Below are positions 47,571 to 64,000 of a stretch of DNA of 64,000 nt, piece after piece; the stretch's first letter is position 1, and every line of letters begins with the position of its first letter. The stretch covers positions 248,001 to 312,000 of the forward strand of contig PADB01000012.1 of the NCBI GenBank assembly GCA_002700365.1, read 5' to 3'. The notes beneath the pieces were generated by a model that saw only the letters and a program-made list of their open reading frames with translations, was not told where the DNA came from and searched no databases. Position numbers and translations under genes: made by a program. The stretch comes from Kordiimonas sp. (GTDB taxonomy: Bacteria; Pseudomonadota; Alphaproteobacteria; Sphingomonadales; Emcibacteraceae).

Positions 47571-47587
47571 GGCCTTTATGACAGGCC
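47571..47587. terminator. Weak hairpin between convergent recG and DUF502 gene
   Basis: GGCCT/AGGCC with a 7-bp loop, with outer pairing of CAATA (47561-47565) and TATTG (47590-47594). There is no T-run, so this is only a candidate. Confidence 0.35.
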
Positions 47588-47588
47588 A

Positions 47589-48332: not shown

Positions 48333-48368
48333 AATGTTCTTTTTGGCTAAAAATGTGACGTGAATATG

Positions 48369-49526
48369 TCACGATAGACTTTTCTCATAAAGCCGATAGG
48401 TCTTTGTGATGTAGCATTCAAAAGCATCCAGAATTTTCCGCAAGGCCGTGTTATCTTCCAATACCCACGAGTATTCTGCTTGTCGGCAGCCCGCATCAAT
48501 GGCGGCATGACCGCATTTGTAAATCAGTGCAAGAGCGATAGCACCGCCCAATGGGGTACTTTGAATATCTTTGCGGATACCCATAAGCGGAATTCGGACC
48601 GTGCGGGTGGTTTTCACTTTAATACGCCACAGCAATTTCAACCAGCCAAAAGGAAAGAGGCGGCCGTTTAAGTCAGCAATGGCCTCATTCACATTCGGAA
48701 GTGTAACCATCATCGCGACGGGCCGTCCTTCATGTTCTACAATTGTGGTGAAATCTTCCCTGATTAAAAGCTTAAGACTTTTTGCGGTATGCTTTAGTTC
48801 TGAATTAGTAAACGGTAAAAACCCCCAATTATCCCGCCAGGCATCATTAAAAATGTCTAATATTGTGGCAAGGTCTTCGTCGTAGTTATTGCGATCAATT
48901 TTACGGAAAACAACATCTTCGGCCTTTTCCGTGGAAGCGACAACGCGTTTTACTGCACGGGGGATTGTTGCTTCCACCAGACCAACTTCATAGGCGTAAA
49001 GGTCTTTGACTTTATGATAGCCATTCTGTTCAACCAGGGCTGCATAGTAAGGAAGGTGGTGGGGCATCATCAGGAATGAGGGTTCATCAAAGCCATCAAC
49101 CTGCAATCCTGATTCTTCGTTAATGGACAAACTAAAAGGGCCAACGACTTTTTCGGCCCCTTGGCGTCGGAGCCAGTCTTCTGCAACAGCAAAAAGAGCA
49201 TTGGCGACCGCGGGGTCGTCAATAGTTTCAAAGAAGCCAAAATGCCCGGTTTTTTCGCCATGATATTTATAGACCAATTCATCCAGCTGGGCCGTAATGC
49301 GACCGACAGGGCGGGCATCTTCATAGGCCACCCATGCCTGCATCTTTGCATGTTCAAAATAGGGGTTTTTCTCAGGATTCAGTCTATCCTGAATTTCCAT
49401 TAAGAGCGGGGGAACCCAATTGGGATCATCTTGATATAGCTGCCAGGGAAGGTGGATAAAATCGTTCCAGCTTTTTTTATCATTTACGGGGCGTATATCT
49501 GCCAGTGGTGTGACCATGTTATCCAT
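48369..49526 (-). CDS. Bacterial ceramide synthase-like N-acyltransferase (GNAT fold)
   Basis: A 385-residue GNAT-superfamily protein. In Caulobacter the enzyme that N-acylates 3-oxo-sphinganine (bCerS) is such a protein of about this length, encoded near spt. Segments fitting this family include WVPPLLMEIQDRL, ARPVGRITAQLD, GPFSLSINEESGLQVDGFD and YSWVLEDNTALRKILDAF. The N-terminal and C-terminal halves each look like a GNAT domain. No signal peptide or membrane helix; probably membrane-associated. It follows the hydroxylase gene by 46 bp. Assignment to bCerS rests on context and recalled similarity, so is not certain. Confidence 0.75.
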   Translation of the reverse strand: MDNMVTPLADIRPVNDKKSWNDFIHLPWQLYQDDPNWVPPLLMEIQDRLNPEKNPYFEHAKMQAWVAYEDARPVGRITAQLDELVYKYHGEKTGHFGFFETIDDPAVANALFAVAEDWLRRQGAEKVVGPFSLSINEESGLQVDGFDEPSFLMMPHHLPYYAALVEQNGYHKVKDLYAYEVGLVEATIPRAVKRVVASTEKAEDVVFRKIDRNNYDEDLATILDIFNDAWRDNWGFLPFTNSELKHTAKSLKLLIREDFTTIVEHEGRPVAMMVTLPNVNEAIADLNGRLFPFGWLKLLWRIKVKTTRTVRIPLMGIRKDIQSTPLGGAIALALIYKCGHAAIDAGCRQAEYSWVLEDNTALRKILDAFECYITKTYRLYEKSLS

Positions 49527-49572
49527 ATGTGGACTTTACTATGAGAGGGCAATTTGTCCCAGTATTAATTGG

Positions 49573-50343
49573 TTAGGGTTTCTGTACGGCTTTGCGTCTT
49601 TCACGTGGGCCATTATGACTGACCCCGCCGGATAATTTAGAAACCCACGGGTATTTTTCAGCCATTTCCGCAGTATAACCAAGATCGAATACGGTCGGGC
49701 TTTTATCTAATTGGGTCTGGTCCGGATAATAATTACCAAACAGGCGATCCCATTCATAATTGGTAATACCGTAATTGGCTTTTTCGTTATGAAAATGATG
49801 AATGAGGTGTAAGGCTTTTATTTTGCGTAAGTATTTATTTTTTGGCTTGTACGATAGATGCATAATGCAATGGCAAAATTCATTTATGCAGGTAAAAAAC
49901 ATGCCGGCAGCAAAAGCGGATGCTGCACCGCCCCAGCCATCCAGATAGTGGCCAATGGGCAGTGTTACAGCTGCAATGGTGGGCATGGTGGTGTATAGGG
50001 CCCCAAACAATATTGATAGATCATAGGGGTCTTGATGATGATCGTAATGGATGCGCTTCCACAGGGCTGCGGTTACCGGGTTTTTGTAAAGATAGTTACC
50101 GTGCAGGACAAATCGATGCAGAATATACCACGCCAGCGGATAGACAACGACCGCAATGACCGCTGCGAGCAGGCTCATCAGGACGGAAACATGTAAGGTG
50201 ATCGCGTAGTAAGTCGCGATAACCCCGGCGACGAGGTAAGCCTGTATGGCATAATACTGGAAGAAGGCCTTGACCAGTTCATTCAATGTCATTTTATCTA
50301 AATGATATTGACGTTCCTTCCAAAACCCTATCTGTGCAAACAC
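49573..50343 (-). CDS. Fatty acid hydroxylase / sterol desaturase superfamily membrane protein
   Basis: An integral membrane di-iron enzyme of about 256 residues. Three histidine clusters are visible: HRFVLHG, HYDHHQDP, and HLIHHFHNEKANYG, with CHCIMH between. Hydrophobic segments lie before and between them. I place the start at GTG 50343, with GGGAG 6 bases upstream, rather than the TTG 18 bases before or the ATG at 50292. Relatives hydroxylate sphingoid or fatty acyl chains; in this place it probably hydroxylates the ceramide. It lies 118 bp after the flippase gene and 46 bp before the N-acyltransferase gene. Confidence 0.8.
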   Translation of the reverse strand: MFAQIGFWKERQYHLDKMTLNELVKAFFQYYAIQAYLVAGVIATYYAITLHVSVLMSLLAAVIAVVVYPLAWYILHRFVLHGNYLYKNPVTAALWKRIHYDHHQDPYDLSILFGALYTTMPTIAAVTLPIGHYLDGWGGAASAFAAGMFFTCINEFCHCIMHLSYKPKNKYLRKIKALHLIHHFHNEKANYGITNYEWDRLFGNYYPDQTQLDKSPTVFDLGYTAEMAEKYPWVSKLSGGVSHNGPRERRKAVQKP

Positions 50344-50479
50344 TTTTTTCTCCCAATACAAGGCACTGATTACAGGCTAACATACTGTGGAGGCCTGAAA
50401 TCTTCAAATGACTTTCGTCAATTCACATCTTTTTTAGACTTTTATAAGGCAAAACCCCGCCTTTAGATCAGTTTATGAC

Positions 50480-52024
50480 TTATTTAGAAGATTTATTCGT
50501 CTGTTTTTTCTTTTCCAGGCGCGGGCCTTTTCCCAGTGAGCGGCGATCCTGAAAATCAAAGCCGTAATGATATAGCAGAAAAAGAATTAACAATAAGGTA
50601 GAAAGGCCGATGCCTAAACGCCATGCAGTCAAAAGGTCATGCGTTAGGATATCCACTAAAAAGAGAGAGGCCGAAAATAACGCTGCAGATAAGACCGGGC
50701 GGACAATTCGATGGTCATATGGCTGTAAATCAAAACGCAAATATAATATGAAAAAAGCCAGTAAACTCGTCACATTCAAACCAATGACTGCAGCAACAGC
50801 CGCCCCGGCCATCTCATATTGCGGTACGAGTATGGCCATAAGTACACAGGCAACAGACAAACCTGAAAAAGAATTAATCAGCGGTATACGATAACGACCT
50901 ATGACATCGATTATCGCATTGGCAGGCCCGGTTAGGGCCTCAGCCCCGCGGCCGATTGTGAGAATAAGCAAAACGCTACCCGCTGCAACAAAGTCATGCC
51001 CTGCGAGGCCCAGGATGTCGTGACGAAAAATGACAATAAATGTGGCAATGGGGATGAAAATACTACAAATGAGGCGGGTCGAAAAAGCGTAAATAACCTG
51101 TACATTTTCTTTGTTTTCTCCCGCATGTATTGCCGCCGCAAGTGGGGAGAGGACATAAGAGAAAACCTGACGAATAACATGCAAGACACTGACGATTTTA
51201 CGTGCAACACCATATAGCGCAACAGCTTCCGCCCCGCGAACGCCGGGTAGAAAGGCATTGAGAAAGAACAGAGGAAGATTGGAATAAAGGCGCTGAGTGG
51301 CCAGCGAAATCATCATGGGAATGCCATAACTGATGGCGTGCCCAAGGATATCAGATTGCCATGAAGTTCGAAATATCAGTGAGACATCGTAAAATCGCCC
51401 TAAGAGACGCAGGCTAAGTAGCATGGTGATAAAAAGAGAGCAAAGATGGGCAAGGTATAGACCAAAAGTATCCTGGCCTAAAAAATAGAAGACCATGGCC
51501 AGAACGATCCGTAAAAATTGTTCGTAAAAGATACGAAGCCTGATTTCGGCACCAAACGCATGACGTGCACGCACTGCGCCTGTAGCAATCTCAACAAGAC
51601 ACCAAAGGGGTAATGTCCATATATATATGCGCACAATATCAGTTATGGCTTGTTGTTTCTCCTGCCCCGCATTGATATAGGGGGAGAGGACAGGCGCTGC
51701 AATAAAGGTGATAACACAGAATATCAGGCTGAGGGTCAGCGTGACGGTCAGGGCAATCTTAAGATAACTGTGGGCTTCGTGTTCGTCTTTTGCCCCAGGG
51801 ACAAAACGTTGTAGGACGGCAACCATTCCCAAGTTTGTGAAAGAAGACGTGAGAAATATGTATCCCCAGAACAATAGAAATATGCCGTAGCTTTCTGCGC
51901 CATAAGTTTGGGCGAGCAGGACAACGCTCAACAATTCAATAACAGCGCCGAGCCGCCCCAGAAATGTAAGTCCTGCCCCTTTTGCCACGGATGTATTAGG
52001 CGATTTATTGAGTGTGTCGGCCAT
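50480..52024 (-). CDS. Oligosaccharide/lipid flippase-like membrane protein (MVF/Wzx superfamily)
   Basis: A 514-residue protein with about 12-14 transmembrane helices of the polysaccharide-export flippase type. The start at 52024 (GGAAG upstream) overlaps the lptG stop as TAATG, so it is translationally coupled to lptG; an in-frame start 21 codons earlier inside lptG is unlikely. It begins MADTLNKSPN and the first helix segment is GLTFLGRLGAVIELLSVVLLAQ; the last 30 residues are basic. Such proteins move lipid-linked sugars or lipids across the inner membrane. In this neighbourhood the load could be a sphingolipid or its glycosylated form; this is inference. Confidence 0.75.
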   Translation of the reverse strand: MADTLNKSPNTSVAKGAGLTFLGRLGAVIELLSVVLLAQTYGAESYGIFLLFWGYIFLTSSFTNLGMVAVLQRFVPGAKDEHEAHSYLKIALTVTLTLSLIFCVITFIAAPVLSPYINAGQEKQQAITDIVRIYIWTLPLWCLVEIATGAVRARHAFGAEIRLRIFYEQFLRIVLAMVFYFLGQDTFGLYLAHLCSLFITMLLSLRLLGRFYDVSLIFRTSWQSDILGHAISYGIPMMISLATQRLYSNLPLFFLNAFLPGVRGAEAVALYGVARKIVSVLHVIRQVFSYVLSPLAAAIHAGENKENVQVIYAFSTRLICSIFIPIATFIVIFRHDILGLAGHDFVAAGSVLLILTIGRGAEALTGPANAIIDVIGRYRIPLINSFSGLSVACVLMAILVPQYEMAGAAVAAVIGLNVTSLLAFFILYLRFDLQPYDHRIVRPVLSAALFSASLFLVDILTHDLLTAWRLGIGLSTLLLILFLLYHYGFDFQDRRSLGKGPRLEKKKQTNKSSK

Positions 52025-53151
52025 TATTCTTCCGTGAAAAGAATGAAGAAACCACCTGTCAGCGTAAACAGCAACATGGGAAGCCATGCTGCAATCCAGG
52101 GGGGAATAGTGCCGAATTGTCCTAGGGCAATAAAGAGATTGTTAGCTATAAAAAAGCCAAAACCCAAGGCGAGGCAGATCATAATGCGCGCGAAAATTGT
52201 GCCAGAGCGATGCACCCCGAAAGCGGCAATTCCAGCCATTAAAGGCATGATGACAGTGCTTAAAGGCGCAACAATTTTCTGTAATAAAGATGTTTCCAAA
52301 TCGTCCGTATTATGCCCTTCAGCCCTGAGCTGCCCGATGGCGGAAGCGAGTTTAGGAAACGACACATGATCGGCAGTGACGGACAGGGCGAGAAAACGTT
52401 CCGGTGCGATCTGTGTTTGCCATAGCATATTTTCCAATGGGGTAACACTATGGTCCGCAAGATTAAATTTCTTCACTTCAAATAATGACCATTGCCCTTC
52501 TCTATATACGGCAAAGTCAGCATGTAATAAGGATGTAAGCTCTAGATTTTTATTGCGGATATATTGCGTGACGTTATCCAGAAGTAACAGGCGGCCATTA
52601 TATGTGATGCCTTCCACCTTTATCAGTGTGTTACCTTCTGCAACCCAGGTATCTTTTGTGGAAATGGGGGCAGGGGGGGTGTCCGCTGCATAATCATTGT
52701 TTTCCCAATTATAAAGCTCCGCCCGGGTATCCACGACAATGGTCTCGTTAAAAGCAAAGTGCAGGCAGGCAATCAAGGCGCAGATTAGTGTCATCGGCAA
52801 AATGATACGGAAAGCTGACCATCCTGATGCTTTAATAATGATAATTTCACTATGTTGATTTAGGACTACAAAGGTAAAAATTGCCGCCAGCAAGGCCGTG
52901 AAGGGTGAAAATTGCGATGCAATTTGCGGGAATCTAAGGAGTGCGTAACGCCATAGGTCCCCAATTTGTGCCCCGTCACCCGCCAGAATATCATCGGAGC
53001 GGGAGAGAAGGTCTAACATTTGTAAAATCGTTGCCAGGCCTAATAAAAGAACCAAAAATCGCATAATAAATAATTTGGCGAGGTACAGGTCCAGACTGCT
53101 GGGTTCAATAATTTTTTTGATCTGCGTATAGAGGCTATGTGCTTGTACCAT
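52024..53151 (-). CDS. lptG: LPS export ABC permease LptG
   Basis: A 375-residue LptF/LptG-family (YjgP/YjgQ) permease. It has helices near 25-45, 70-95 and 110-130, a large periplasmic beta-jellyroll region (about 135-290) and three C-terminal helices. It pairs with LptF and the ATPase LptB to extract lipopolysaccharide from the inner membrane and pass it to LptC and the Lpt bridge. AAGGTAACC precedes the ATG. It lies 9 bp after lptF, and its stop codon overlaps the start of the flippase gene. Confidence 0.9.
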   Translation of the reverse strand: MVQAHSLYTQIKKIIEPSSLDLYLAKLFIMRFLVLLLGLATILQMLDLLSRSDDILAGDGAQIGDLWRYALLRFPQIASQFSPFTALLAAIFTFVVLNQHSEIIIIKASGWSAFRIILPMTLICALIACLHFAFNETIVVDTRAELYNWENNDYAADTPPAPISTKDTWVAEGNTLIKVEGITYNGRLLLLDNVTQYIRNKNLELTSLLHADFAVYREGQWSLFEVKKFNLADHSVTPLENMLWQTQIAPERFLALSVTADHVSFPKLASAIGQLRAEGHNTDDLETSLLQKIVAPLSTVIMPLMAGIAAFGVHRSGTIFARIMICLALGFGFFIANNLFIALGQFGTIPPWIAAWLPMLLFTLTGGFFILFTEE

Positions 53152-53160
53152 GTGGTTACC

Positions 53161-54348
53161 TTAATTTACGGCAGATAGACGTTGAGTTAATTTACGGAAG
53201 GCAGACGAGACCACATCGTAAATAATCTCAATGCGCCGCAGAGGTTGTCCGCCTACCGTATAAGCCCCAATGTAGAACAGACGCAGACTAATAAAAATAA
53301 ACAGCAATGTCGGCCCCCATATGGCGAGATAAGGGGAAAGGCTGCCTGTTGCGGAGAAGGCCTCACCAAATTGCAATATTTTATGTAGGGAGATTAGCAG
53401 GACCAACCCCACGGTAATACCCAAGGCTTTACCCGAACGTTTCGCCACTAACCCAAGTGGAACAGCCAGAAGTGGGATAAAGAGAATTGAAATAGCCCGG
53501 GCAACACGGGCATGGAAAGCGGCCGCGTAAGAGAGGTTTTCATGATCAGACCTCATATGATCCCATAGTTCCGGGAGTGTAAATTCACGGGCATTGGCAT
53601 CTGAACCACGTTCCCTAAAGCTGGCAAAGTCGGGCACGTCAACCGGTAGATCATGAACGTTAAAGGTCAGTACACGTGGTTTAATATCTTTGGGATTTAA
53701 GTCCACAATTGTGCCGTCGAAAAGGCGCAGGACAATAGTCTGTTCTGAAGGGGTCGCAAAAAAGCGGCCTTTTTGTGCGGAAATCACAACGACCCGCCCG
53801 TTATCATTTTTACTCTGGGCAAAAATATTATGGAGCTCTGTCCCGTCTTTGCGAGATTCTTCAATCCTGAGAATTAGACCGTTACCCAGGTTGGTGAAAT
53901 CGCCAGTTTTAATGCTGGCCCCCAATGCACCGCTCTTAATTTCAAACCTCAGGCCTTTGTATGCGTAATGGCTATAAGGTTGCAAAAAACCTGAGATGAA
54001 TACATTGACAATAAGTAAGACAAAGGCAAGCACTATGGCCATACGGACCATGCGCGTCAAACTGAGTCCACAAGAAAGCAAAGCGTCGAGTTCACTATTT
54101 AACGCCAACTTGCGGAAGGCCATGAGAACCCCAAGGAATAGGCCAATAGGTACAGCAAGGGCTAGGTATTCAGGGAGAAGGTTAGCCAGCATCTTCCAGA
54201 CGACTTCGACAGGTCCTCCCTGATTGACGATGAAGTCAAAAAGGCGCAGCATTTTTTCTAGCAGCAATAACAAGGCCGCAATCAGCAAGGTCATAAACAG
54301 GGGGATTAAAATCTGTTTGAGTATGTAGCGGTCAATGGATTGTAACAT
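53161..54348 (-). CDS. lptF: LPS export ABC permease LptF
   Basis: A 395-residue permease of the same family as LptG, with the usual N-terminal D-R-Y-I-L-K-Q segment, LALAVPIGLFLGVLMAFRKLALNSEL (here in pieces) and a periplasmic jellyroll region followed by three helices with LFIPLLAVPLGLVA. It forms the LptF2 permease complex with LptG. It is the first gene of the minus-strand unit that continues through lptG, the flippase, the hydroxylase and the ceramide-synthase-like gene. It is divergent from the DUF2141 cassette across 152 bp, which should hold both promoters. Confidence 0.9.
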   Translation of the reverse strand: MLQSIDRYILKQILIPLFMTLLIAALLLLLEKMLRLFDFIVNQGGPVEVVWKMLANLLPEYLALAVPIGLFLGVLMAFRKLALNSELDALLSCGLSLTRMVRMAIVLAFVLLIVNVFISGFLQPYSHYAYKGLRFEIKSGALGASIKTGDFTNLGNGLILRIEESRKDGTELHNIFAQSKNDNGRVVVISAQKGRFFATPSEQTIVLRLFDGTIVDLNPKDIKPRVLTFNVHDLPVDVPDFASFRERGSDANAREFTLPELWDHMRSDHENLSYAAAFHARVARAISILFIPLLAVPLGLVAKRSGKALGITVGLVLLISLHKILQFGEAFSATGSLSPYLAIWGPTLLFIFISLRLFYIGAYTVGGQPLRRIEIIYDVVSSAFRKLTQRLSAVN

Positions 54349-54500
54349 TTGGCTTTACGGTTTTTTTCGGCTTCTGTGTTGCGTTTGAAAACTTGTTATC
54401 TTGCCGGGATAGTAAAATTTTATGGACATTATAAGGCCATATTCTTTTGACCATAATTGCTTTACGTAAAGAAGGAAATACAGAAAACGGTTTTGGCAAT

Positions 54501-55022
54501 ATGAATATATCGCGCCTTGGTATTGTTATTATCTATATTTTTATGGTCGTGCTTTTTCATATTCAGGCGGCTGAAGCCGCTGTTTATGGTCAGGAATATT
54601 TTGCAGATGATCCGTCGCAATGCCAAAATACGAAAGGGCGACCCAATATTCTTGTGACTGTGACGGGGTTAAAGGAATTATCAGGTAATGTACGGCTATC
54701 ATTATATGATGATAAGCCCGATAATTTCCTCGCCAAAGGTGCGAAGATCGCACGTATTGACGTGCCCGCGAAAGAGGGTCTCCAAATTTGTGTTTCCCCT
54801 CCGCAGCCTGGTATATATGCCATCGGCATACTGCATGATATCAATGCCAATGGGCGTTTTAACCTTATGGTTGATGGCGGCGGTTTTTCAAATAATCCTA
54901 AGATATTATTCGGAGCACCACCTCATAGAAAAGCATCTTTTAATACGGGAATGAACGGTACGGAGCTGGAAATAAAGGTAACGTATTTTGGTCAAAAGAA
55001 AAAACGGCGTCACCGGAAGTAA
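54501..55022 (+). CDS. Secreted DUF2141 protein of the sphingolipid cassette
   Basis: A 173-residue protein with a signal peptide when started at the ATG 54501 (MNISRLG followed by a hydrophobic core and cleavage near AAEA at about residue 27); an in-frame TTG at 54447 would put 18 polar residues before it. The mature part is a single DUF2141 beta-sandwich-like domain (ILVTVTGLKELSGNVRLSLYD, IYAIGILHDINANGRFN). The C-terminus is strongly basic (KKKRRHRK). The role is unknown; a periplasmic lipid-handling or binding role is possible. It is the first gene of the plus-strand cassette leading to the lipid kinase. No other function can be offered. Confidence 0.75.
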   Translation: MNISRLGIVIIYIFMVVLFHIQAAEAAVYGQEYFADDPSQCQNTKGRPNILVTVTGLKELSGNVRLSLYDDKPDNFLAKGAKIARIDVPAKEGLQICVSPPQPGIYAIGILHDINANGRFNLMVDGGGFSNNPKILFGAPPHRKASFNTGMNGTELEIKVTYFGQKKKRRHRK

Positions 55023-55109
55023 TTTGACACATAAAGAATTTTGCTTTTCAACATATAAAGTGGTAGAAAGCGCAATTAAACAATAGAAATATAAGAAGGT
55101 TTCGCAGTA

Positions 55110-56078
55110 ATGATTGCCGTATTAAGCAATCCTCTGAGTACGCAAAATAAATTGGCGATGGATAAGATACGTGACGTCATTGAGAATAGTCACGATATCT
55201 TTCACTATGAAATTAGTACCATAGAGCAGATCAATGACGCTTTAGTGACATTTGCCGATTTATCTCCGGAAGTTTTGGTCATTAACGGTGGCGATGGCAC
55301 TGTGCAGGCTGTGTTAACGCATATTGTTACCCATAAATATTTTGACGATATGCCACCTATTGTGGTTTTGCCCGCGGGCAAAACGAATATGATTGCCGAA
55401 GACTTAGGGGCGATTGGGCGTGTACCACACGAAGAGTTACGCCGATTAATCTCAATGCGTGATATGGGCATTCTTCAAGATGCTATTACCAGTCGGCAAT
55501 TGCTGACCCTAGATGGCCTGGAAGGCAACAGCCGTCTTTGTGGCATGTTCTTTGGGACTGCGGGCATTGTTAAGGGCATAGAATTCTGCCGTAAACGTAT
55601 TTATCCGTTAAATTTGCCCAATCTTTTGTCACATGTTCTGACGGTATTATTGCTGATCGCAAATGGTTTGTTTGGCGGACGTAAATCATTTATTCGGACT
55701 GGCCCGATTACGGTAAAACAGGATACACGCGGAACTGTGGTTGGAAACTACTTTGTTATCGTTGTGACGACACTGAATAAACTGATTATGGGCGTAAGCC
55801 CGGATGGCGGTGCAAAGAAAAAAGGGATGCAATATTTGAGCATCGATCAGGACCGCAAAGTATTACTTAAAAGCCTCTGGTTGTTTTTGTGTCGCCGACT
55901 GGGACGCCAGAATGAACCGGGGCAGGTGATACGCACAGTGCAGGACCTGACATTATCGCTGGACTGCCCCGTAACATTAGATGGCGAACTCTACCACCCC
56001 AATGAAACCGGCCTTTTACATCTGCAGGTCACGGACCCTGTGCCTTTTGTGCAATTACGTCCCGAAAAAGGGGCCTAG
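55110..56078 (+). CDS. Diacylglycerol kinase-family lipid kinase, probable ceramide kinase
   Basis: A 322-residue soluble kinase of the DAGK catalytic-domain family. The nucleotide motif is GGDGT at residues 60-64, with VLPAGKTNMIAEDL further on, and the core ends with LTLSLDCPVTLDGELY. It is of the LCB5/DgkB fold that phosphorylates lipids. In Caulobacter a homologous gene near spt, cpgB, encodes a ceramide kinase. A ceramide or dihydroceramide substrate is inferred from this neighbourhood; a diacylglycerol or sphingosine substrate cannot be excluded. It lies 6 bp ahead of the Tam41-like gene. Confidence 0.82.
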   Translation: MIAVLSNPLSTQNKLAMDKIRDVIENSHDIFHYEISTIEQINDALVTFADLSPEVLVINGGDGTVQAVLTHIVTHKYFDDMPPIVVLPAGKTNMIAEDLGAIGRVPHEELRRLISMRDMGILQDAITSRQLLTLDGLEGNSRLCGMFFGTAGIVKGIEFCRKRIYPLNLPNLLSHVLTVLLLIANGLFGGRKSFIRTGPITVKQDTRGTVVGNYFVIVVTTLNKLIMGVSPDGGAKKKGMQYLSIDQDRKVLLKSLWLFLCRRLGRQNEPGQVIRTVQDLTLSLDCPVTLDGELYHPNETGLLHLQVTDPVPFVQLRPEKGA

Positions 56079-56084
56079 CTTCAT

Positions 56085-57077
56085 ATGACCCGTGAGACGG
56101 CTGCTATTCAAGATTTCCTTTTAGAAGAAAGTCGCGCTTCTCGCATTCCCGGGACTGACGAAGTTGCACAGGACCTTCTTTCCACATTAAGAGCCGATAG
56201 TGTTGTGGCTGTTTTGTTTTATGGCTCTTGCCTACGTACAGGTGATGTGAAAGATAAGATATTAGATTTTTATCTTGTGGTAGAAAACTATAAAAAAGCG
56301 TATGGCTGGGGATGGAAGGCTATAGCGAATAAGTTGATCCCCCCCAATGTTTTTTATCGTGAAACCATGACTTCACAAGGGGTAATGAGGTCAAAATACG
56401 CGATTATCAGCGAACAGGACCTTAAATATGGCACATCCCAGAAATGTTTGAATGTGTCTTTGTGGGCGCGTTTTTCGCAGCCTATACAAATACTCTATCT
56501 TCGTAAGCCGGACGATAAAGCGACTATATTAGAATGTTTGGCACAGGCCCCCATCACATTATTGGGTAATATACTTCCGTTAATGCCAGAGAGGTTTACG
56601 GTTGCTGACCTATGGGGGCAGGCATTCACGGCAACCTATAATGCGGAGTTGCGATCAGAAAAAGCCGGTAAAGGGATAGAGATCTATGATCTATATGCTG
56701 ACCGTTATCAGCAGATGATGCCACTATTGTATCGTCACTTTCCTTTTCTAAGTCCATACCCGGTTCAGTCACGACGTCAGAAAGTCGCACAAAAAACAGA
56801 GAATTTAGAGTATTTTGCGCCGAAGAAACAACGCGAGAGAAAACGAAAGAGAACCCAAGCACTATGGCTGTTACGGCGGATTCAAGGGAAGTGCCTAACC
56901 ATTGCACGACTGTTAAAAGCCACAACCACCTTTGAAGGCGGTGCGGATTACATTGTCTGGAAGATCAGTCGCCATTCAGGAGTAGAAATAACCCTTACCC
57001 CGTGGCAGCGGAAACATCCGATACTTGCTGGCTTTGGTTTGTTTCTTCAGCTTCGCAGGAAAGGGGCATTCCGCTAG
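56085..57077 (+). CDS. Tam41-like nucleotidyltransferase, candidate CDP-ceramide-forming enzyme
   Basis: A 330-residue protein. Residues 43-66 (VLFYGSCLR...ILDFYLVV) give the nucleotidyltransferase pattern G47-S48 followed by the D61-containing strand, as in Tam41 (YGSG... then LDF..). The segments SKYAIIS (103-109) and ARFSQPIQIL match the Tam41 KYG[VI]IS and GRL-P-K-I blocks, and LPLMPERFTVADLWGQAF matches its later helix. Tam41 is the mitochondrial CTP:phosphatidate cytidylyltransferase. After the lipid kinase, it may convert ceramide phosphate to a CDP-lipid. Recognition is by motif from memory. The 3' 83 bp overlap the spt gene on the other strand. Confidence 0.68.
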   Translation: MTRETAAIQDFLLEESRASRIPGTDEVAQDLLSTLRADSVVAVLFYGSCLRTGDVKDKILDFYLVVENYKKAYGWGWKAIANKLIPPNVFYRETMTSQGVMRSKYAIISEQDLKYGTSQKCLNVSLWARFSQPIQILYLRKPDDKATILECLAQAPITLLGNILPLMPERFTVADLWGQAFTATYNAELRSEKAGKGIEIYDLYADRYQQMMPLLYRHFPFLSPYPVQSRRQKVAQKTENLEYFAPKKQRERKRKRTQALWLLRRIQGKCLTIARLLKATTTFEGGADYIVWKISRHSGVEITLTPWQRKHPILAGFGLFLQLRRKGAFR

Positions 57078-58284
57078 CATCAGCTGCGGGCAGGACACCA
57101 AGGCGTTCCCCAACCAGTTTAAACTTTTGTAACATAAAGTCTATTTGTGCAGATGTATGCGCAGCAGATAAACTACAACGTAATAAATTTAGATTCTGTG
57201 GCGTCGCCGGCGGCAAGGCGAGATTGACATAAACGCCTTCTTTCAGCATTTCCCCCCAAAAGGCAATCGCCGTTTCCTTACTTTCAATCTTAATGGCGGC
57301 GATGGGGCTTTTTCCTGTCGTTCCCATATCAAAACCGACCTGGTCCAGACCTTTATTAAGTTGAATAGAATTTGTAATGATCTGCTCACGTAACTGATTG
57401 TTTTCGACAATGATTTTTAGGGCTGTTTGGGCAGAAGCAACCACTGAAGGCGGTAAAGAGGCCGTGAACATATAAGGCCGGCATACCAGCCGCAGGACTT
57501 CGAATTTGGGATGGTTAGAGACACAGTAACCACCTATAGTGCCGACACTTTTACTGAAAGTCCCGACAATAAAATCAATCTGATCTTCGACGCCTTGCTC
57601 TTGTGCGACGCCACGACCTGTCGCGCCGAAAACACCTATGGAATGGGCTTCGTCTACGAGTATTGCAGCACTATGTTTTTTAGAAATTGCGGCCAGCTCT
57701 GCCAAAGGTGCCTGGTCGCCGAGCATACTATATATACCTTCGACAACCACTAGTTTTCCCGCGTCAGGATCAAGACGTTTAAGTTTTTTATCCAGATCAG
57801 CAGCGTCATTGTGTCTAAAACGGATGACTGTAGCATTGCCCATGGCGCAACCATCATAGATGCTCGCATGGCTATCCGCATCAATAAGAATATAGTCTTT
57901 AGGCCCAGCTAACGTTGCGATCACGCCGAGATTTGCCTGGTAGCCTGTGGAGAAAACCATGGCGTGCTCTGTGCCGTAGAATTCTTTAAGTGTTTCTTCC
58001 AACGCATTATGGGAAGAATAAGTTCCATTCAAGACGCGTGAGCCCGTGGTGCCCGTTCCTTGTTCGTCCAAAGCGGCGTGGGCAGCAGAGATGCAATCCT
58101 GATTAAACGTCATGCCCATATAGTTGTTAGTGCCGGCCAAGACAGTATGACGACCATTAATAACGGCTTCGGTCTGGGAAATGACTTTTTCCATTGAGAC
58201 TGTAAATGGATTGCCATCACCTTCAGGCAGTTGGCTGAAATTATTTAAGATCGTATCGAATTTATCGAAAAGGCTTGTCGTCAT
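56995..58284 (-). CDS. spt: Serine palmitoyltransferase
   Basis: Alpha-oxoamine synthase of 429 residues. The PLP lysine is K245 in VGTFSKSVGTIGG, with the PLP-ring histidine H139 in DADSHAS and D211-H214 in DEAHS. It condenses serine with an acyl thioester, here probably on the dedicated ACP, to give 3-oxo-sphinganine, the first sphingolipid step. The identity as Spt rather than KBL or BioF comes from the neighbours (ACP, ceramide reductase, acyl ligase, kinase). The last about 25 residues overlap the convergent gene and are poorly conserved. It lies 2 bp after the ACP gene. Confidence 0.88.
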   Translation of the reverse strand: MTTSLFDKFDTILNNFSQLPEGDGNPFTVSMEKVISQTEAVINGRHTVLAGTNNYMGMTFNQDCISAAHAALDEQGTGTTGSRVLNGTYSSHNALEETLKEFYGTEHAMVFSTGYQANLGVIATLAGPKDYILIDADSHASIYDGCAMGNATVIRFRHNDAADLDKKLKRLDPDAGKLVVVEGIYSMLGDQAPLAELAAISKKHSAAILVDEAHSIGVFGATGRGVAQEQGVEDQIDFIVGTFSKSVGTIGGYCVSNHPKFEVLRLVCRPYMFTASLPPSVVASAQTALKIIVENNQLREQIITNSIQLNKGLDQVGFDMGTTGKSPIAAIKIESKETAIAFWGEMLKEGVYVNLALPPATPQNLNLLRCSLSAAHTSAQIDFMLQKFKLVGERLGVLPAADASGMPLSCEAEETNQSQQVSDVSAATG

Positions 58285-58286
58285 GA

Positions 58287-58535
58287 TTATTCATTCACAA
58301 TTTTTGCAACAGCATCTGCAACTTGCCCAACATTCTCTAAATCAGGAAGAATGTTAAGAGGCACAGTAATATCGAAGTGATCTTCAATTTCTGCAAGTAA
58401 ATCCATGACGGCCAACGAATCTAGGTCCAGGTCTGCCGTAAATTTAGTCTCCTTATTAATTTCAATACCACGGGTATTAAAATTTCCAACAAGTGTAGCG
58501 ACTGTATTGAAGATTTCTTCTTGGCTTTGTGTCAT
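58287..58535 (-). CDS. Dedicated acyl carrier protein for sphingolipid synthesis
   Basis: An 82-residue acyl carrier protein started at ATG 58535 (an upstream in-frame start adds 11 residues that are not ACP-like). The phosphopantetheine site is the serine in DLDSLAVMD. It is acidic and follows the usual four-helix pattern. In Caulobacter the ACP next to spt is AcpR, needed for ceramide synthesis; by context this is its counterpart and should be charged by the acyl ligase encoded upstream. It runs into spt with a 2-bp gap. Confidence 0.87.
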   Translation of the reverse strand: MTQSQEEIFNTVATLVGNFNTRGIEINKETKFTADLDLDSLAVMDLLAEIEDHFDITVPLNILPDLENVGQVADAVAKIVNE

Positions 58536-58624
58536 GCGATATGCCCATAAAATAAAACTTGGCCACAATTACTGTCCAAATAGGACGAAAAGATGGCAAT
58601 ACTCATATGTTTGATCGTCAGTGA

Positions 58625-59581
58625 TTATAGTAATTTTTCCTGACGATACCACTGTAAGGTTTCAGAAAGTCCTTGTTCTAAGCTATAGCGTGATTGCCAA
58701 GGGGTATAATCCTGAACAAAGTCTCCCTCTGCGACCCAAGAGGCGTGATAGATTTCTCTCACTTTCTCTGGTGTAAGCATTGGTGTTATGCCGCAGATCC
58801 TGGCAATGAACACGTTACTTACGGCTATAGTTTTCAGTATCCACCGGGGTAGCCTGATTTCTATTGTTTTATGTCTGCCGAGTAAGGTTGCCGCTAACGT
58901 CATGATGTCAGCAAGTGTATATCCATCTATATTATTATCAGAAACATTTAAGAGTTTGCCGTAACAGGAGTTAGAGAGCATGCAGGCTGCAATTGCTTCG
59001 GTCAGGTCTGTGACATGTATTAAAGCAGCGCGCTGGTCTTTTACAGCGGGTAAAACCTTTAGCCCGTATTGCAAAGGTTTAAACATTTTCAATGTTTCCG
59101 CATCGCCGGGCCCATAAACTGCGGGGGGGCGAATGATTGTCCAGGGCATAGTTCCGGCATTCCGTTTTAGATATTCTTCCCCCAGTCTTTTACTATCCCC
59201 GTAGCTGGAGATGCCGGGAACTTGGGCGGCCATCGTTGAAATCAATATAAAATGAGGTGTTGTGGGGGTTGGAAGCTGTGCTTCGGGGACAGGGTTGTTA
59301 ATTGCGTTGAGGAGTGCTGTCACGCTTTCTGCATTAATATGATTAAAAGTTTCCGCATTTCGTGCCTTTATAAGGCCGGCACAGTGGATGACAATATCAC
59401 ATTCGGCAGTAAGCGTTTTCAATACTGAAGGGTTATCGAAATCACCCAATATCCATTCAACGTTTTGCCGCGGGGGTTGAGGGCGGCGTGTCAATGCTTT
59501 GATGTGATGATTTTGAGCCAGAAGACGCAGTAGGGGTTGTCCGACAAATCCGGTTGCACCCGTGAGGGCAATGGTTTTCAT
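58625..59581 (-). CDS. NAD(P)-dependent ceramide reductase-like protein (CerR type)
   Basis: A 318-residue extended short-chain dehydrogenase/epimerase. The N-terminal nucleotide motif is TGATGFVG, and the catalytic pattern is S-T-M... with SSYGDSK (Y-x-x-x-K). In bacteria of the Caulobacter type, CerR reduces 3-oxo-ceramide after N-acylation and is encoded beside spt and acp. This gene stands in that place. It could instead be another sugar or lipid reductase, but the operon makes CerR most likely. It lies 89 bp before the ACP gene and 74 bp after the acyl ligase gene. Confidence 0.78.
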   Translation of the reverse strand: MKTIALTGATGFVGQPLLRLLAQNHHIKALTRRPQPPRQNVEWILGDFDNPSVLKTLTAECDIVIHCAGLIKARNAETFNHINAESVTALLNAINNPVPEAQLPTPTTPHFILISTMAAQVPGISSYGDSKRLGEEYLKRNAGTMPWTIIRPPAVYGPGDAETLKMFKPLQYGLKVLPAVKDQRAALIHVTDLTEAIAACMLSNSCYGKLLNVSDNNIDGYTLADIMTLAATLLGRHKTIEIRLPRWILKTIAVSNVFIARICGITPMLTPEKVREIYHASWVAEGDFVQDYTPWQSRYSLEQGLSETLQWYRQEKLL

Positions 59582-59655
59582 TATAAAGCCCCCCGACTAA
59601 AAGGAATAAAGCCTGTCCGCCCAGTACACACCTATTCCTATAGAAAAGATGCGAT

Positions 59656-61386
59656 TTAAGAAACCAGCTTGCCGGCGAGATATTGTTGGCGCGCCTTTGT
59701 CCGGCTTAGTTTTCCAGAAGATGTTCGTGGTAGCGTGCGTGGTGGCAGTAATACGACCTTCGAAGAAGAACCAACGAGGCTTTGGACCATGTCACGAATG
59801 CGACTAGCAAGCTCTGCGCGGCTTTTCTCGTCGCGTATGCGGCATTGTACCAATATGGCCGGTACTTCTTCGTTATTATCGCCAGGAATAGAGATTGCAG
59901 CACTATCACCACTTCTTAGTTCTGGTAATTGTTCTACGGCCCATTCAATGTCTTGTGGCCAATGATTCCGCCCGTTGATTATAATAAGGTCTTTGAGCCG
60001 CCCAATAATATATATCGCCCCATTAGAGATATATCCCATATCACCTGTATCCAGCCATCCATCATTCAGGCAGGCTTTGGTGGCCTCATCATCGTTATAG
60101 TACCCGACCATGACACTTGGGCCTTTAACGCAAACGCGACCTATTTTGCGTTCCCCCAGCGGATTGCCATTTTCATCCCAAATTTCAACGTCATACTGAG
60201 GAAGGGGAATGCCGCAATTAATGACCTCGCGATAATTTACACCGTCCTGAATTTCACCGTTGAGTTCTTTTATTTCACCGGACAGGACGCGCTCATCAAC
60301 CAGTTCAGTCTCAAAACCTTGCTGTGGAGGTGTAAAGCTTACGGCTAATGTTGTCTCGGCAAGGCCGTAACTCGGGACAAATGTTTTTTCCGTGAAGCCT
60401 GCGTCTTTAAAGGCATCATAGAACGAACGCAAGACTTCCGCACGAATCATGTCACCGCCGATTCCGGCAACACGCCAGCTCGATAAATCTAAATCCGCGA
60501 TGTCCGAAGGTTTAAAACGGCGTGTACAGATTTCGTAACCGAACGTAGGGCTGTAGGAAATTGTGCCACGATTCTCTGAAATAAGCTTTAGCCACAATAA
60601 AGGGCGCCGGGCGAAGTCTTCTGTGCGCAGGAAATCAGTTGTTACTTGCGATGTAAGGCAGGCAAGAAAACAGCCAACCAATCCCATATCATGATAAAAA
60701 GGAAGCCATGAAACGCAGCGGTCATCATCTGTTGTATGCACGCCGTCATATGATATGCCGTAGCAGTTCGCCATGAGTGATTTGTGTGAAACGGCAACTC
60801 CATGCGGAAAACGCGTGCTTCCTGATGAATATTGCAGGTAGGCTATATCGTCAGATTGAGGGCGTTCCAATACAATCGCGTCAAGGGCTACATCCGCAGT
60901 CTGAGCTTCGAACATATCGGCGGTACCGATAAAATTCATTTTCAAGCCTTCGGCCGCTTCATCCAGTAAAGGTAACATCTGAGAGGCTGAAAAAGCGTAA
61001 CTTGCACCGCAACTCTTCATTTGCTGATGTAGTTGTTGCGTATATCCATCCCGGCCACCGAAAGATGTTGGCAGGGGGAGAGGTACAGGTAACAATCCCG
61101 CATACTGACAACCAAGGAAGTAGCAGACAAAATCATCACTGGTTTCTGCGATCAGGGCAACTCTTTCGCCCTTTGTGGCCCCAAAACCGACAAGCCGTCG
61201 ACCTATTTCCTGCGCGCGTTCACACATCTCTGTAAATGTCAGTGGACATTCCAATTCACCACGTGCGGAATAAAAGTTGAATCCTCTTATTCCTTTGGCA
61301 GCATATTCGAGTGCATCCAATACATTTTCAAAATCAGCATGCCGTCGCGGCAATGATGGGTCGTGTGTAGGAATTGGTTCACGCAT
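59656..61386 (-). CDS. Fatty acyl-AMP ligase / acyl-ACP synthetase for sphingolipid synthesis
   Basis: A 576-residue ANL-superfamily enzyme. The core motif is LQYSSGSTRFPHGVAVSHKSL, in which the usual Lys of the P-loop tail is His; the same relaxed wording occurs in fatty acyl-AMP ligases that load carrier proteins instead of CoA. WLDTGDMG and the C-terminal catalytic Lys in RTSSGKLSRTK are present. It should activate a fatty acid and load it on the ACP encoded two genes downstream. The Caulobacter counterpart is the acyl-ACP synthetase near spt. The first gene of the minus-strand unit. Confidence 0.82.
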   Translation of the reverse strand: MREPIPTHDPSLPRRHADFENVLDALEYAAKGIRGFNFYSARGELECPLTFTEMCERAQEIGRRLVGFGATKGERVALIAETSDDFVCYFLGCQYAGLLPVPLPLPTSFGGRDGYTQQLHQQMKSCGASYAFSASQMLPLLDEAAEGLKMNFIGTADMFEAQTADVALDAIVLERPQSDDIAYLQYSSGSTRFPHGVAVSHKSLMANCYGISYDGVHTTDDDRCVSWLPFYHDMGLVGCFLACLTSQVTTDFLRTEDFARRPLLWLKLISENRGTISYSPTFGYEICTRRFKPSDIADLDLSSWRVAGIGGDMIRAEVLRSFYDAFKDAGFTEKTFVPSYGLAETTLAVSFTPPQQGFETELVDERVLSGEIKELNGEIQDGVNYREVINCGIPLPQYDVEIWDENGNPLGERKIGRVCVKGPSVMVGYYNDDEATKACLNDGWLDTGDMGYISNGAIYIIGRLKDLIIINGRNHWPQDIEWAVEQLPELRSGDSAAISIPGDNNEEVPAILVQCRIRDEKSRAELASRIRDMVQSLVGSSSKVVLLPPRTLPRTSSGKLSRTKARQQYLAGKLVS

Positions 61387-61738
61387 TAACGTTACTACCA
61401 GCTTTTTTTATTTAACGGCCAATACACATATACATTATGTAAAGGCATTCATTTAGTGTCACATAAAGTTCATGCTTCGATATAGATTGTTCTTCTTTAC
61501 CGCAAGTTCTTAATCTCGCAAAATTAATTTTTTTTCCATATCGGTTTTAATCTTCTACTTTCTGGCACTAATATGCCAAAGATTACATTTATTTTCACAC
61601 TTGATTTTATTTTTTTTCAAGGACATAGCCTTTTTTAAGCGATATTGGGTCGTTAAGTGTCATGCAAATGCAACTTTTCTGACATTATGGCCGGAAAATA
61701 ACGCATGACTGAAAATAACTCATAGCAAAAAATAACGC
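61387..61738. other. 350-bp intergenic region before recX
   Basis: Between the divergent acyl ligase gene and recX, AT-rich. It holds the word ATTTAGTGTCA at 61451-61461 (the same 11 bp as at 215-225) and GTTAAGTGTCA at 61652-61662, a TGGCA/TGCCA inverted repeat at 61563-61578, and three tandem 17-bp repeats at its right end. No ncRNA or gene was recognised. Promoters for both flanking genes should lie here. Confidence 0.5.
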
Positions 61739-61744
61739 ATGGCA
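61694..61744 (+). repeat. Three tandem 17-bp repeats spanning the recX start codon
   Basis: Copies at 61694-61710, 61711-61727 and 61728-61744, each built on AAAATAAC(G/T)CAT. The third carries the recX ATG (61739), the first an ATG that opens a six-codon frame (MTENNS, 61704-61724) ending just before recX. recX has no Shine-Dalgarno sequence, so this repeat region may replace it. Confidence 0.6.
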
Positions 61745-62320
61745 AAGAAGCTTACACAAGACTATCTAAAAAATGCGGCTTATTATTATTTGTCGCGATT
61801 TTCTTCATCAGAGGTGAATTTATCACAGGTTTTACAACGTAAGGCGTTGCGTCGCCTCAAGATAAGTGGCGAACAGATAGAACCAGATGAAATAGACGGT
61901 TGGATTAAGGCCGTCGTGCAGTCATGTGTTGAGCTGGGGCTGTTAGATGATGCTGAATACGCAAAAAGTAAAGCCCGTAGTTTATTTAATCGCGGAAATT
62001 CCAGTTATCAGATACGGCAAAAATTACGACAAAAGGGGCTAAGTGAAGAGAACATACGTATAGCCCTCGAAGCATTAGCAGAGTTTTCAGATCGTCCAGA
62101 CTGGGATGCAGCCGTACGTTTCGCAAAACGCAAGCGTTTTGGAGTCTTTGCCTCACAACGCGGAGAATCTAAGGGAACAGGCTCCGCAGATAATGCCAAA
62201 TATCAAAAACAGCTACAAAGCTTTATGCGGGCAGGGTTTTCGGTTGACCTTGCGCGTAAGGTCCTAAGTGCCAAGACGGAAGATGAATTACAGCAGTTAT
62301 CCAACGAGTTCGAAGATTGA
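61739..62320 (+). CDS. recX: RecX-like regulatory protein
   Basis: A 193-residue protein of three-helix repeats like RecX, which inhibits RecA filament growth and ATPase activity. The family pattern is seen in AAYYYLSRFSSSEVNLSQVLQRKALRRL, YAKSKARSLFNRGNSSYQIRQKLRQKGL and FMRAGFSVDLARKVL, each in pieces. recA is not in the window. The start has no ribosome site and lies in the third of three 17-bp tandem repeats. It stands alone on the plus strand. Confidence 0.78.
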   Translation: MAKKLTQDYLKNAAYYYLSRFSSSEVNLSQVLQRKALRRLKISGEQIEPDEIDGWIKAVVQSCVELGLLDDAEYAKSKARSLFNRGNSSYQIRQKLRQKGLSEENIRIALEALAEFSDRPDWDAAVRFAKRKRFGVFASQRGESKGTGSADNAKYQKQLQSFMRAGFSVDLARKVLSAKTEDELQQLSNEFED

Positions 62321-62393
62321 TTTCCATTGGCTAATTGTGGTGGCTACATAAGCGGGCAGAGCCGCTCTTTATAGCTATACAAAAAGCTGTAAG

Positions 62394-63326
62394 TTAACCG
62401 TTTTGAATCCAATTTAGAGTGTATGTTAGTCCATCGCGCAAGCTGACATTTGCTGATGTGCCAAGGTCACCAATTGCTTTATCGGGTTTACCATAAGATG
62501 CGTATATATCTCCCATTCTTGCAGGCTCATAAACTATATTGGCTTCGACACCCAAGATGTCGGCTATCAGCTTTGCGAGATCGGTAATCGTTGTTGGGTT
62601 TCCAGTGCAGACATTATAGACAGCAGCGCCTTGGGAAGCGTTTTCCATTCCGGCAATGAGGTGACGGACAACATCACCCACATATATAAAATCACGGGAT
62701 TGCCCACCATCGCCAAAAATGGTGATTGTTTGCCTGCGTGCAAGTTTTTCAGCAAAAATTGCAATTACGCCCGAATAGGGTGATTTGGGGTCTTGTCGTG
62801 GGCCATAAACATTGAAGAAACGAAAGCCACGCGTTGGAACCATATGTACATTGGACGCGACAAAGGCGTGTAGTTCAGACCCATATTTATCAGCACCATA
62901 AGCGGATAAAGGTTTTATAGCTGATTCTTCGTGCAGGGGGACTTCTGAATTGTCCCCATAAACAGCTGCAGAAGAAGCGTAGACGACGGGAATAGGGCCC
63001 GCAACGTTTGCTCTGCGAGCTTCGTCCAGAATACAGATTGTCCCGGTTAAATTAGCTTTGTGTGTTTCTAACCAGGCTTCATTAGAACGTTGAACAGAAG
63101 CAACAGCGGCCAGATGAAAACAGCCGTCTACGTTCTCAAGGCTTTTTTTGACAATCGCCTCGTCAGCAACGTCACCAATGATGACTTCTGCACCGTTGGG
63201 GGCATTTTCACGATGACCAGTGGAGAGGTCATCGAGGATACGAACATGATGACCCTGATCTATCAAAGAGGCCGCAAGATGCGAACCAATAAAGCCAAGG
63301 CCGCCTGTCACAAGATATGTCGCCAT
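62394..63326 (-). CDS. NAD-dependent epimerase/dehydratase, UDP-sugar type
   Basis: Extended SDR protein of 310 residues. The Rossmann motif is VTGGLGFIGSHLA, the catalytic Y-x-x-x-K is YGADKYGSE, and GFRFFNVYGPRQDP and SRDFIYVGDVV are typical of UDP-hexose 4-epimerases such as WbpP/GalE. It likely makes a UDP-sugar for polysaccharide or glycolipid. It could supply the sugar of a glycosylated sphingolipid, but the neighbourhood link is only proximity. It stands 68 bp from the convergent recX and 84 bp downstream of the IscU-like gene, which is read first. Confidence 0.82.
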   Translation of the reverse strand: MATYLVTGGLGFIGSHLAASLIDQGHHVRILDDLSTGHRENAPNGAEVIIGDVADEAIVKKSLENVDGCFHLAAVASVQRSNEAWLETHKANLTGTICILDEARRANVAGPIPVVYASSAAVYGDNSEVPLHEESAIKPLSAYGADKYGSELHAFVASNVHMVPTRGFRFFNVYGPRQDPKSPYSGVIAIFAEKLARRQTITIFGDGGQSRDFIYVGDVVRHLIAGMENASQGAAVYNVCTGNPTTITDLAKLIADILGVEANIVYEPARMGDIYASYGKPDKAIGDLGTSANVSLRDGLTYTLNWIQNG

Positions 63327-63410
63327 TTTTACCGTACTCCGTCTATGGGTCAGCGCAGTGTAAAAGGCATGCGTTAAAAGAAAATGAAATCTTTAAATCA
63401 GGTCAGCATT

Positions 63411-63851
63411 CTATGCATGAACATTTTTGATGTCTAAGGCGGCGAGAGCTTCGAACGGTAAAGTAACACAATGGTGACGGCTTTTATGTGGGCCCACGGC
63501 AGAAAAAGCGGTCAGTTTTTCCCATTCTGGGGCCGGCCATTTTACTTCAGTAAGTGTGTTTGTTTGCAGGGCCGTTGTTAGAAGAGTTTCTACCTGGCAT
63601 AGCTCTTCAACTGTTTTTCCCTCTATATATTCTCCGATCAGTGATGCCGTAGCCTGGCAAAGGACGCAGGCCTTTGTTTCATGGGCATAGGATTGAATTT
63701 TGTTGTCTTCCAGGACCACATCAATGGTAATACGATCCCCGCAGTTTGGATTATGTATCGTGGTACTGTGTGTCGGCTCTTTTATGCGTCCCGCGTGACT
63801 TGCCGTAGCCGCCATTTTAAGAATTTCACGCTGATAAAGTTCGTCTATCAT
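63411..63851 (-). CDS. IscU/SufU-like iron-sulfur cluster scaffold protein
   Basis: A 146-residue protein of the NifU N-terminal (IscU/SufU) fold. Candidate cluster ligands are C37 in NPNCGD (with D39), C62 and C65 in ACVLCQATAS, and C128 in RHHCVTLP. The C-V-L-C spacing and the extra region before the last cysteine differ from IscU and approach SufU-like proteins. It builds or carries Fe-S clusters in the cytoplasm. No isc or suf genes are seen around it. The 149 bp to the right edge hold no recognisable gene. Confidence 0.85.
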   Translation of the reverse strand: MIDELYQREILKMAATASHAGRIKEPTHSTTIHNPNCGDRITIDVVLEDNKIQSYAHETKACVLCQATASLIGEYIEGKTVEELCQVETLLTTALQTNTLTEVKWPAPEWEKLTAFSAVGPHKSRHHCVTLPFEALAALDIKNVHA

Positions 63852-64000
63852 TTAACAACAATTGCTTTCTTGGTGGACCTGCCTAGAGGGCATAATATTG
63901 TCTATACATCCGATATATACAGATGCGTTTCTATAGGGGCGTGCTGTTTTTCGCATAAACTGTGAATAATATTCCGGTTTTGCTTGATTCTGCTATGCCA

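Follow-up and report, generated by a model that had tools for sequence, protein, structure and literature searches.

A Tam41-like gene within a sphingolipid gene cluster

The window analysed here, a stretch of 64,000 nucleotides from a Kordiimonas sp. contig (PADB01000012.1), carries at 56085-57077 of its plus strand an open reading frame of 330 amino acids plus stop, the reverse strand of which is interrupted by many stops. This frame stands among genes related to ceramide synthesis and lipid transport, which are the following:

48369..49526, minus strand: GNAT-like acyltransferase in the CerS position (sub-cut-off GNAT matches only, PF13480 at 16.9 and PF00583 at 16.7 bits; named from the described cluster)
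49573..50361, minus strand: fatty acid hydroxylase (PF04116, 71.1 bits)
50480..52087, minus strand: polysaccharide-type flippase (PF01943, 47.3 bits)
52024..53151, minus strand: LptG-type permease (TIGR04408, 284 bits, cut-off 240)
53161..54348, minus strand: LptF-type permease (TIGR04407, 264.5 bits, cut-off 230)
54447..55022, plus strand: DUF2141 protein, first gene of the plus-strand group (PF09912, 73 bits)
55110..56078, plus strand: ceramide-kinase-like DAGK_cat protein in the CpgB position (PF00781, 46.8 bits, cut-off 23.6; putative ceramide kinase by analogy with CpgB, passages of PMC10331486)
56085..57077, plus strand: CpgC/Tam41-like nucleotidyltransferase, proposed CTP:ceramide-1-phosphate cytidylyltransferase (fold, family profile matches, conserved residues)
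56995..58284, minus strand: serine palmitoyltransferase, Spt (NF047599, 629.3 bits, cut-off 500)
58287..58568, minus strand: acyl carrier protein in the AcpR position (PF00550, 39.7 bits, cut-off 20.8)
58625..59581, minus strand: NAD-dependent epimerase/SDR in the CerR position (PF01370, 64.5 bits; named from gene order)
59656..61386, minus strand: fatty acyl-AMP ligase in the AasR position (NF006624, 812 bits, cut-off 600)

The names CerR, CerS, AcpR and AasR follow gene order and the cluster described in passages of PMC11324152. Only 6 bp separate the stop of the kinase gene from the start of the Tam41-like gene, which in turn is convergent with the Spt gene and overlaps it by 83 bp. The kinase carries GGDGT at residue 60 and LDGE at residue 290, so that the earlier note was right in placing a lipid kinase with this motif directly before the gene. 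As a side observation on the Spt profile, the Escherichia coli control genome unexpectedly matched NF047599 above its cut-off.

Relationship to Tam41

The earlier note had related the protein to Tam41, the mitochondrial CTP:phosphatidate cytidylyltransferase. This likeness holds by fold and, through the relatives of the protein, by sequence, but not by a Pfam Tam41 match (PF09139) of the protein itself, for which 0 Pfam families were found at E ≤ 1. The link rests on a fold search, a member-by-member Pfam scan, a PF09139 search of genomes and an hhalign comparison.

The AlphaFold model of the protein (pLDDT 84.7, pTM 0.83, from a 16-row alignment) has a single strong fold family, that of Tam41 from S. 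pombe and from a Firmicutes bacterium. Foldseek ranked the Tam41 entries 6ig4, 6ig2 and 7ecd at E 5.2e-9 to 3.7e-8 and the next family at 3e-5, with modest TM-scores (0.48 by query, 0.56 by target, rmsd 7.4). In the comparison with Tam41 that the earlier note had suggested as a check, VIA structure comparison returned Z 18.2 with 7ecd (226 residues aligned, rmsd 3.0) and 16.8 with 6ig4, against 7.2 for the next unrelated fold. CTP is present in the structures 6ig2 and 7ecd, the latter holding CTP-Mg. According to passages of PMC7018664, Tam41 has a two-domain fold of nucleotidyltransferase and winged helix, and passages of PMC11646218 describe it as retaining one of the three usual catalytic acids.

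At the sequence level, the window protein searched on its own had no real match in Pfam, NCBIfam or PDB sequences, and PF09139 found nothing at E ≤ 10 in the window genome, with the Caulobacter control likewise without a match. The family as a whole is more informative. PF09139 matched 8 of 47 diverse members at E ≤ 1 (best 3.9e-7), whereas every other listed Pfam family matched one of the 47 in this member-by-member scan. When 30 relatives were scanned singly, five of them (L069, L064, L096, L087 and L133) scored 26.6-30.2 bits over a cut-off of 24, one (L110) scored 14.8 bits, below that cut-off, and 24 were without a Tam41 match, among them all ten relatives of one set and 14 of the 20 in the other. 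The same profile run against 249 Pseudomonadota genomes gave two matches at E ≤ 0.01, both under the cut-off, the better of which (E 2.2e-4, 21 bits) belongs to the Tam41-like family and adjoins a kinase gene. Aligned by hhalign with an 88-column stretch of two real Tam41 sequences, the family profile scored 30.8 with a probability of 64%, and the best of 100 column shuffles scored 18.0. The family profiles A1 and A2 did not reach the Tam41 chains among PDB sequences, where their best match was 9xbd, a small nucleotidyltransferase (E 0.16 and 0.024).

The motifs of the protein are Y46-G47-S48-C49, D61, K104-Y105-A-I-I-S109, A128-R129-F130-S-Q132-P133-I134 and LPLMPERF. The KYAIIS and LPLMPERF segments are thus present as had been claimed, but the third segment reads ARF-xx-P-I and not ARF-x-P-I. 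Tam41 (TAMM41) and the Firmicutes enzyme of 7ecd share with the window protein the fold and the GS...D pattern with D61. The agreement with the Tam41 motifs KYG, GRFQKP and SYxGDxRM, as read from the two solved sequences only, is partial, in that KY, RF..P and Y..[DE].R (the residues K, Y, R, F, P, Y and R) are kept. D61 is followed by F62-Y63, which leaves the usual DxD incomplete, and would correspond, by motif, to the Tam41 acid.

There are also departures. In addition to the missing Pfam match of the protein and its gene's placement in a sphingolipid cluster, the window family has an invariant glutamine (Q132) in place of the lysine in the Tam41 RFQKP motif, SYxGDxRM reads TYNAELRSE, with D replaced by E188 and M by S191, and the best structural alignment stops at residue 283, beyond which lies a conserved C-terminal stretch with pLDDT of about 64 to 78. 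Because of Q132, TYNAELRSE and this stretch, we take the window protein for a putative distinct branch of the Tam41 nucleotidyltransferases, and because the first two depart from the Tam41 motifs, its chemistry or substrate could differ from those of Tam41.

Distribution and conservation of the family

The Tam41-like protein or a homologue occurs in 131 of the 196 genomes searched, the window's own included, and in 42 of 385 genomes drawn from the class. A scan of a genome collection gave 406 relatives out of 419 pattern matches, with no Caulobacter among the 80 listed, and a search of viral contigs gave no relative. The contigs carrying relatives were labelled Alpha- and Gammaproteobacteria, Nitrospirota, Desulfobacterota and Calditrichota. 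Homologues were also seen in 17 plasmid records (Roseomonas 13, Pseudomonas 2, Diaphorobacter 1 and Qipengyuania 1), where the feature under every match was annotated as "hypothetical protein".

In an alignment of 170 homologues, Y46, G47, D61, P87, K104, R129, Q132, E188, R190, Y289 and K293 are 100% conserved where covered, and S48 at 99% of the homologues covering the position; LPLMPERF was not among the listed conserved columns. Loci from the genome collection and from the genome library are partly the same DNA, so the counts of 170 loci and 170 homologues, as well as the motif tallies other than those of the unique kinases, include duplicates. The full conservation of 11 residues across the homologues covering them marks a constrained protein and not a chance open reading frame.

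Parallels with the cpg genes of Caulobacter

The closest described counterpart is CpgC of Caulobacter crescentus (CCNA_01219 / CC_1161), for the window order of Spt, Tam41-like gene and kinase equals spt-cpgC-cpgB. The Caulobacter positions CC_1160-CC_1161-CC_1162 and the set CC_1161, CC_1160, CC_1159 and CC_1158 are given in passages of PMC11324152; there and in passages of PMC12275187, CpgC is assigned a domain of the CDP-DAG-synthase type, as in the window gene, and the genes belong, like those of the window, to a cluster for the synthesis and probable export of anionic sphingolipids. The Caulobacter pair adjoins cpgA, a CDP-alcohol transferase gene, and a phosphoesterase gene, neither of which is labelled in window positions 44000-64000, and a DUF2141 gene stands before the window pair, unlike in Caulobacter. 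Elsewhere in the family, the Tam41-like gene, the kinase and a CDP-alcohol transferase are consecutive in four loci (L118, L120, L121 and L125), which also have a metallophosphoesterase gene in the vicinity. Because of its place between Spt and the kinase, and of the gene set of these four loci, which is as described for Caulobacter, we take the window gene for a probable orthologue of cpgC.

In Caulobacter, CpgB is a proven ceramide kinase (passages of PMC10331486), and CpgC is needed for the conversion of ceramide 1-phosphate to ceramide phosphoglycerate (CPG), for which CpgA and CpgD are dispensable (passages of PMC12275187 and PMC11324152). CpgD, a CTP:phosphoglycerate cytidylyltransferase, also belongs to that pathway, but it acts on phosphoglycerate and not on a lipid, and the mutant without it still makes CPG (passages of PMC12275187). 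CpgC itself is said in passages of PMC13228409 to act "via an unidentified mechanism", a view shared by passages of PMC12275187; it is the step that the Caulobacter papers of 2025 and 2026 leave without a mechanism.

An NDP-activated ceramide made through CC_1161 has already been proposed, with the nucleotide left open, in passages of PMC11324152. The claim of the earlier note that an activated sphingolipid of this kind is an undescribed intermediate has to be narrowed accordingly; what stands is that CDP-ceramide is demonstrated in none of the papers searched, the term having no full-text match in open-licence literature, outside which most subscription journals lie. The wording "NDP-activated", together with Q132 and the Y..ELRSE motif, where the protein differs from Tam41, would accommodate an enzyme that activates ceramide 1-phosphate with ATP, GTP or UTP and yields an NDP-ceramide other than CDP-ceramide. 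We regard this as very unlikely, given that CTP occupies two of the closest solved structures (6ig2 and 7ecd), which score far above the adenylyltransferases of the same superfold (Z 7.2).

Linkage to the kinase gene

The kinase lies just upstream of the Tam41-like gene, on the same strand, in 161 of the 170 loci with that gene, duplicates included. With an iterated kinase profile, seven loci were without a kinase: L085 and L110 have less than 1 kb of upstream sequence, and L087, L127, L133, L151 and L156 have room for it, although in L156 a kinase lies elsewhere on the contig. In L133 and L151, with no adjacent kinase, the Tam41-like gene adjoins a CerS-like gene, and in L127, also with none adjacent, a CDP-alcohol transferase gene. 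Loci with the Tam41-like gene hold 142 unique kinases in all, among which [GAS]GDG[TA] is kept in all 137 covered (5 uncovered), GGDGT is exact in 130 of these 137, and DGE is kept in 138 of the 142.

The window's own taxonomic family offers the opposite situation. The Tam41-like gene is absent from 31/31 relatives (47-row profile, E ≤ 0.1), with Spt present in 26 of them (E ≤ 1e-140) and a kinase-like protein kept in 28. Twenty-eight stretches were compared, 14 of them of 4.6 to 19.9 kb and 14 shorter; in 25 the kinase abuts a convergent Spt gene, with -11 to 50 bp between them, and in the other three the stretch examined holds no Spt. The order in this family, seen in seven loci, is DUF502, CerS, (hydroxylase), LptF/G, kinase, Spt, CerR, AasR and RecX. 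GGDGT is lost in 28/28 of these kinases (GDRAL, GGQAL and so on), and the E of DGE in 27/27 of those covered. No remnant of the window protein was detected by tblastn in the 28 loci nor in L212-L214. What is new here is, then, the tie to Tam41 by structure and this joint absence of the gene and of the catalytic motif of the kinase. On the simplest interpretation, the kinase has a use only where the Tam41-like protein is there to consume its product. The coupled loss was probably one main evolutionary event and not 28 independent ones.

Other genes of the cluster point to the same family. The window is 74% identical to its own family in Spt, 57-58% in LptF/G and 68% in AasR, and Spt and Lpt trees place it beside the family, represented by 8 of the loci, with support of 100/99 and 99/96; for CerR, DUF502 and RecX, own family and outgroups tie. 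The window kinase is 29% identical to own-family kinases versus 36-43% to the outgroups compared. Accelerated evolution of the kinase was considered as a sign of lost function and set aside as not specific: the stem value is 1.77 in the own family, but two lineages in which the gene is retained have values of 1.86 and 1.4. The specific sign of lost kinase function is motif loss alone, not faster evolution.

The DUF2141 gene was not found in the 28 own-family stretches, and a flippase gene was found in none of 14 loci, one of which, L196, is too short; the shorter stretches could not have shown a flippase. Since neither was found in these stretches without the Tam41-like gene, the DUF2141 protein (54447-55022) and the flippase (50480-52087) may serve a head-grouped lipid. 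The kinase-like proteins without GGDGT themselves (28 genomes, L184-L211, for example L187:9414-10373) remain beside Spt in 25 of the 28, and each may be a pseudokinase that serves in lipid binding or regulation.

Outside the own family, three other genomes without the Tam41-like gene present different states of the kinase. That of G039 is a kinase-like protein with GGDAT and DGE that abuts Spt; G075 keeps GGDGT and DGE and has the middle of the kinase shortened; and G066 has an intact kinase with GGDGT, on a contig that ends there in an assembly 64% complete. By a soft count, kinase matches at E ≤ 1e-10 were missing from 34 of the 65 genomes without the Tam41-like gene versus 20 of the 131 with it.

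CdsA and the lipid substrate

CdsA, the bacterial CDP-DAG synthase, is a membrane protein unrelated to the Tam41-like protein. A reaction of the same type would be expected of both, but the Pfam scan of the window protein found no CTP_transf_1 domain (CdsA, PF01148). The window genome has a CdsA of its own (PF01148, 205 bits), which leaves no need for another plain CDP-DAG synthase.

This bears on the idea that the Tam41-like protein is a second ordinary phosphatidate cytidylyltransferase, the adjacency to the kinase reflecting shared lipid regulation only. Both solved Tam41 groups (6ig4 and 7ecd) are indeed phosphatidate enzymes, according to passages of PMC11646218 and PMC7018664, and the neighbouring kinase is of the DAG kinase superfamily. 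Besides the CdsA already present, however, the gene is placed within a sphingolipid cluster and is absent from loci that retain the ceramide genes but have lost the kinase motif, and a route through diacylglycerol would leave unexplained that loss of the Caulobacter counterpart abolishes CPG (passages of PMC11324152). We consider an ordinary phosphatidate enzyme quite unlikely.

A candidate route through CDP-ceramide

We favour, with somewhat more than even confidence, the reading of the window gene as a CTP:ceramide-1-phosphate cytidylyltransferase of the CpgC family, a sphingolipid branch of Tam41. The combination of kinase and cytidylyltransferase put forward in the earlier note is the best reading at hand and agrees with the coupled loss in the own family; that the nucleotide is CTP, and the lipid ceramide 1-phosphate rather than phosphatidate, we infer from fold and genomic context, as computation does not separate these choices here. 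Along this route, Spt, AcpR, CerR, AasR and CerS would make ceramide, which the adjacent kinase would convert to ceramide 1-phosphate. The Tam41-like enzyme would bind CTP-Mg between its nucleotidyltransferase and winged-helix domains, with D61 as the conserved acid, and transfer CMP onto ceramide 1-phosphate, so that CDP-ceramide and pyrophosphate result. A transferase acting afterwards would exchange CMP for the head group, and the LptF/LptG-type permeases would carry the lipid outward.

Should CDP-ceramide be the product, the phosphosphingolipids of bacteria would follow the same CDP-lipid logic as glycerophospholipids. A solved, CTP-bound relative and the joint absence with the kinase motif reduce the CpgC gap to a simple assay question, that of CTP plus ceramide 1-phosphate.

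CDP-alcohol transferases and the head group

A route via CDP-ceramide needs some transferase, and this is its weakest link. The only CDP-alcohol transferases of the window genome at E ≤ 1 are PgsA (149.6 bits, cut-off 109.1) and PssA (120.6 bits, cut-off 107), so within the PF01066 class, at this threshold, no dedicated enzyme accompanies the Tam41-like gene there. Of the 131 genomes carrying the gene, 48 have at most two PF01066 matches. For this order, we reject the idea that the gene comes with an extra CDP-alcohol transferase, the mean number of PF01066 matches being 2.95 in these 131 genomes and 3.17 in the 65 without the gene. A CDP-alcohol transferase of the L120 type, which adjoins the kinase (PF01066, 34.8 bits), is present in 34 of the 170 loci with the gene. 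After CDP-ceramide, PgsA or PssA might act, or an enzyme of another kind, or CpgC might do more than activate.

The missing excess of CDP-alcohol transferases in genomes with the gene also suits a different proposal, in which proteins of the CpgC type make no free CDP-lipid and the fold builds the head-group bond directly on ceramide 1-phosphate, by transfer of glycerate or phosphoglycerate. It is the simplest reading of the Caulobacter genetics, where CpgB and CpgC are the only proteins with a known requirement for CPG, which still forms when CpgA is missing (passages of PMC12275187 and PMC11324152). Yet the direct attachment of glycerate to ceramide 1-phosphate is judged energetically not very favourable in passages of PMC11324152, the specific fold match is with a CTP-using lipid enzyme, and the Tam41 K, Y, RF..P and Y..[DE].R positions are kept. 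On balance we hold direct transfer to be unlikely.

Returning to the cytidylyltransferase reading, we tentatively extend it, as a possibility with the odds against it, to the whole Tam41-derived family: all its members would make CDP-ceramide, with head groups diverging by lineage. Dedicated CDP-alcohol transferases would act in some lineages, and in genomes like that of the window the housekeeping PgsA or PssA would act on CDP-ceramide, giving ceramide analogues of phosphatidylglycerol or phosphatidylserine. Provided that CDP-ceramide is the product, genomes without a dedicated transferase would suggest that PgsA or PssA takes a sphingolipid as substrate.

Some loci hold two CDP-alcohol transferases. 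In L120, a second and longer one (14495-15703, PF01066, 403 amino acids) has the Lpt permease pair on one side and the hydroxylase gene on the other, with similar matches in L118, L121 and L125. In the Nitrospirales loci L064, L068 and L078, two CDP-alcohol transferases flank the pair of kinase and Tam41-like genes, one on each side.
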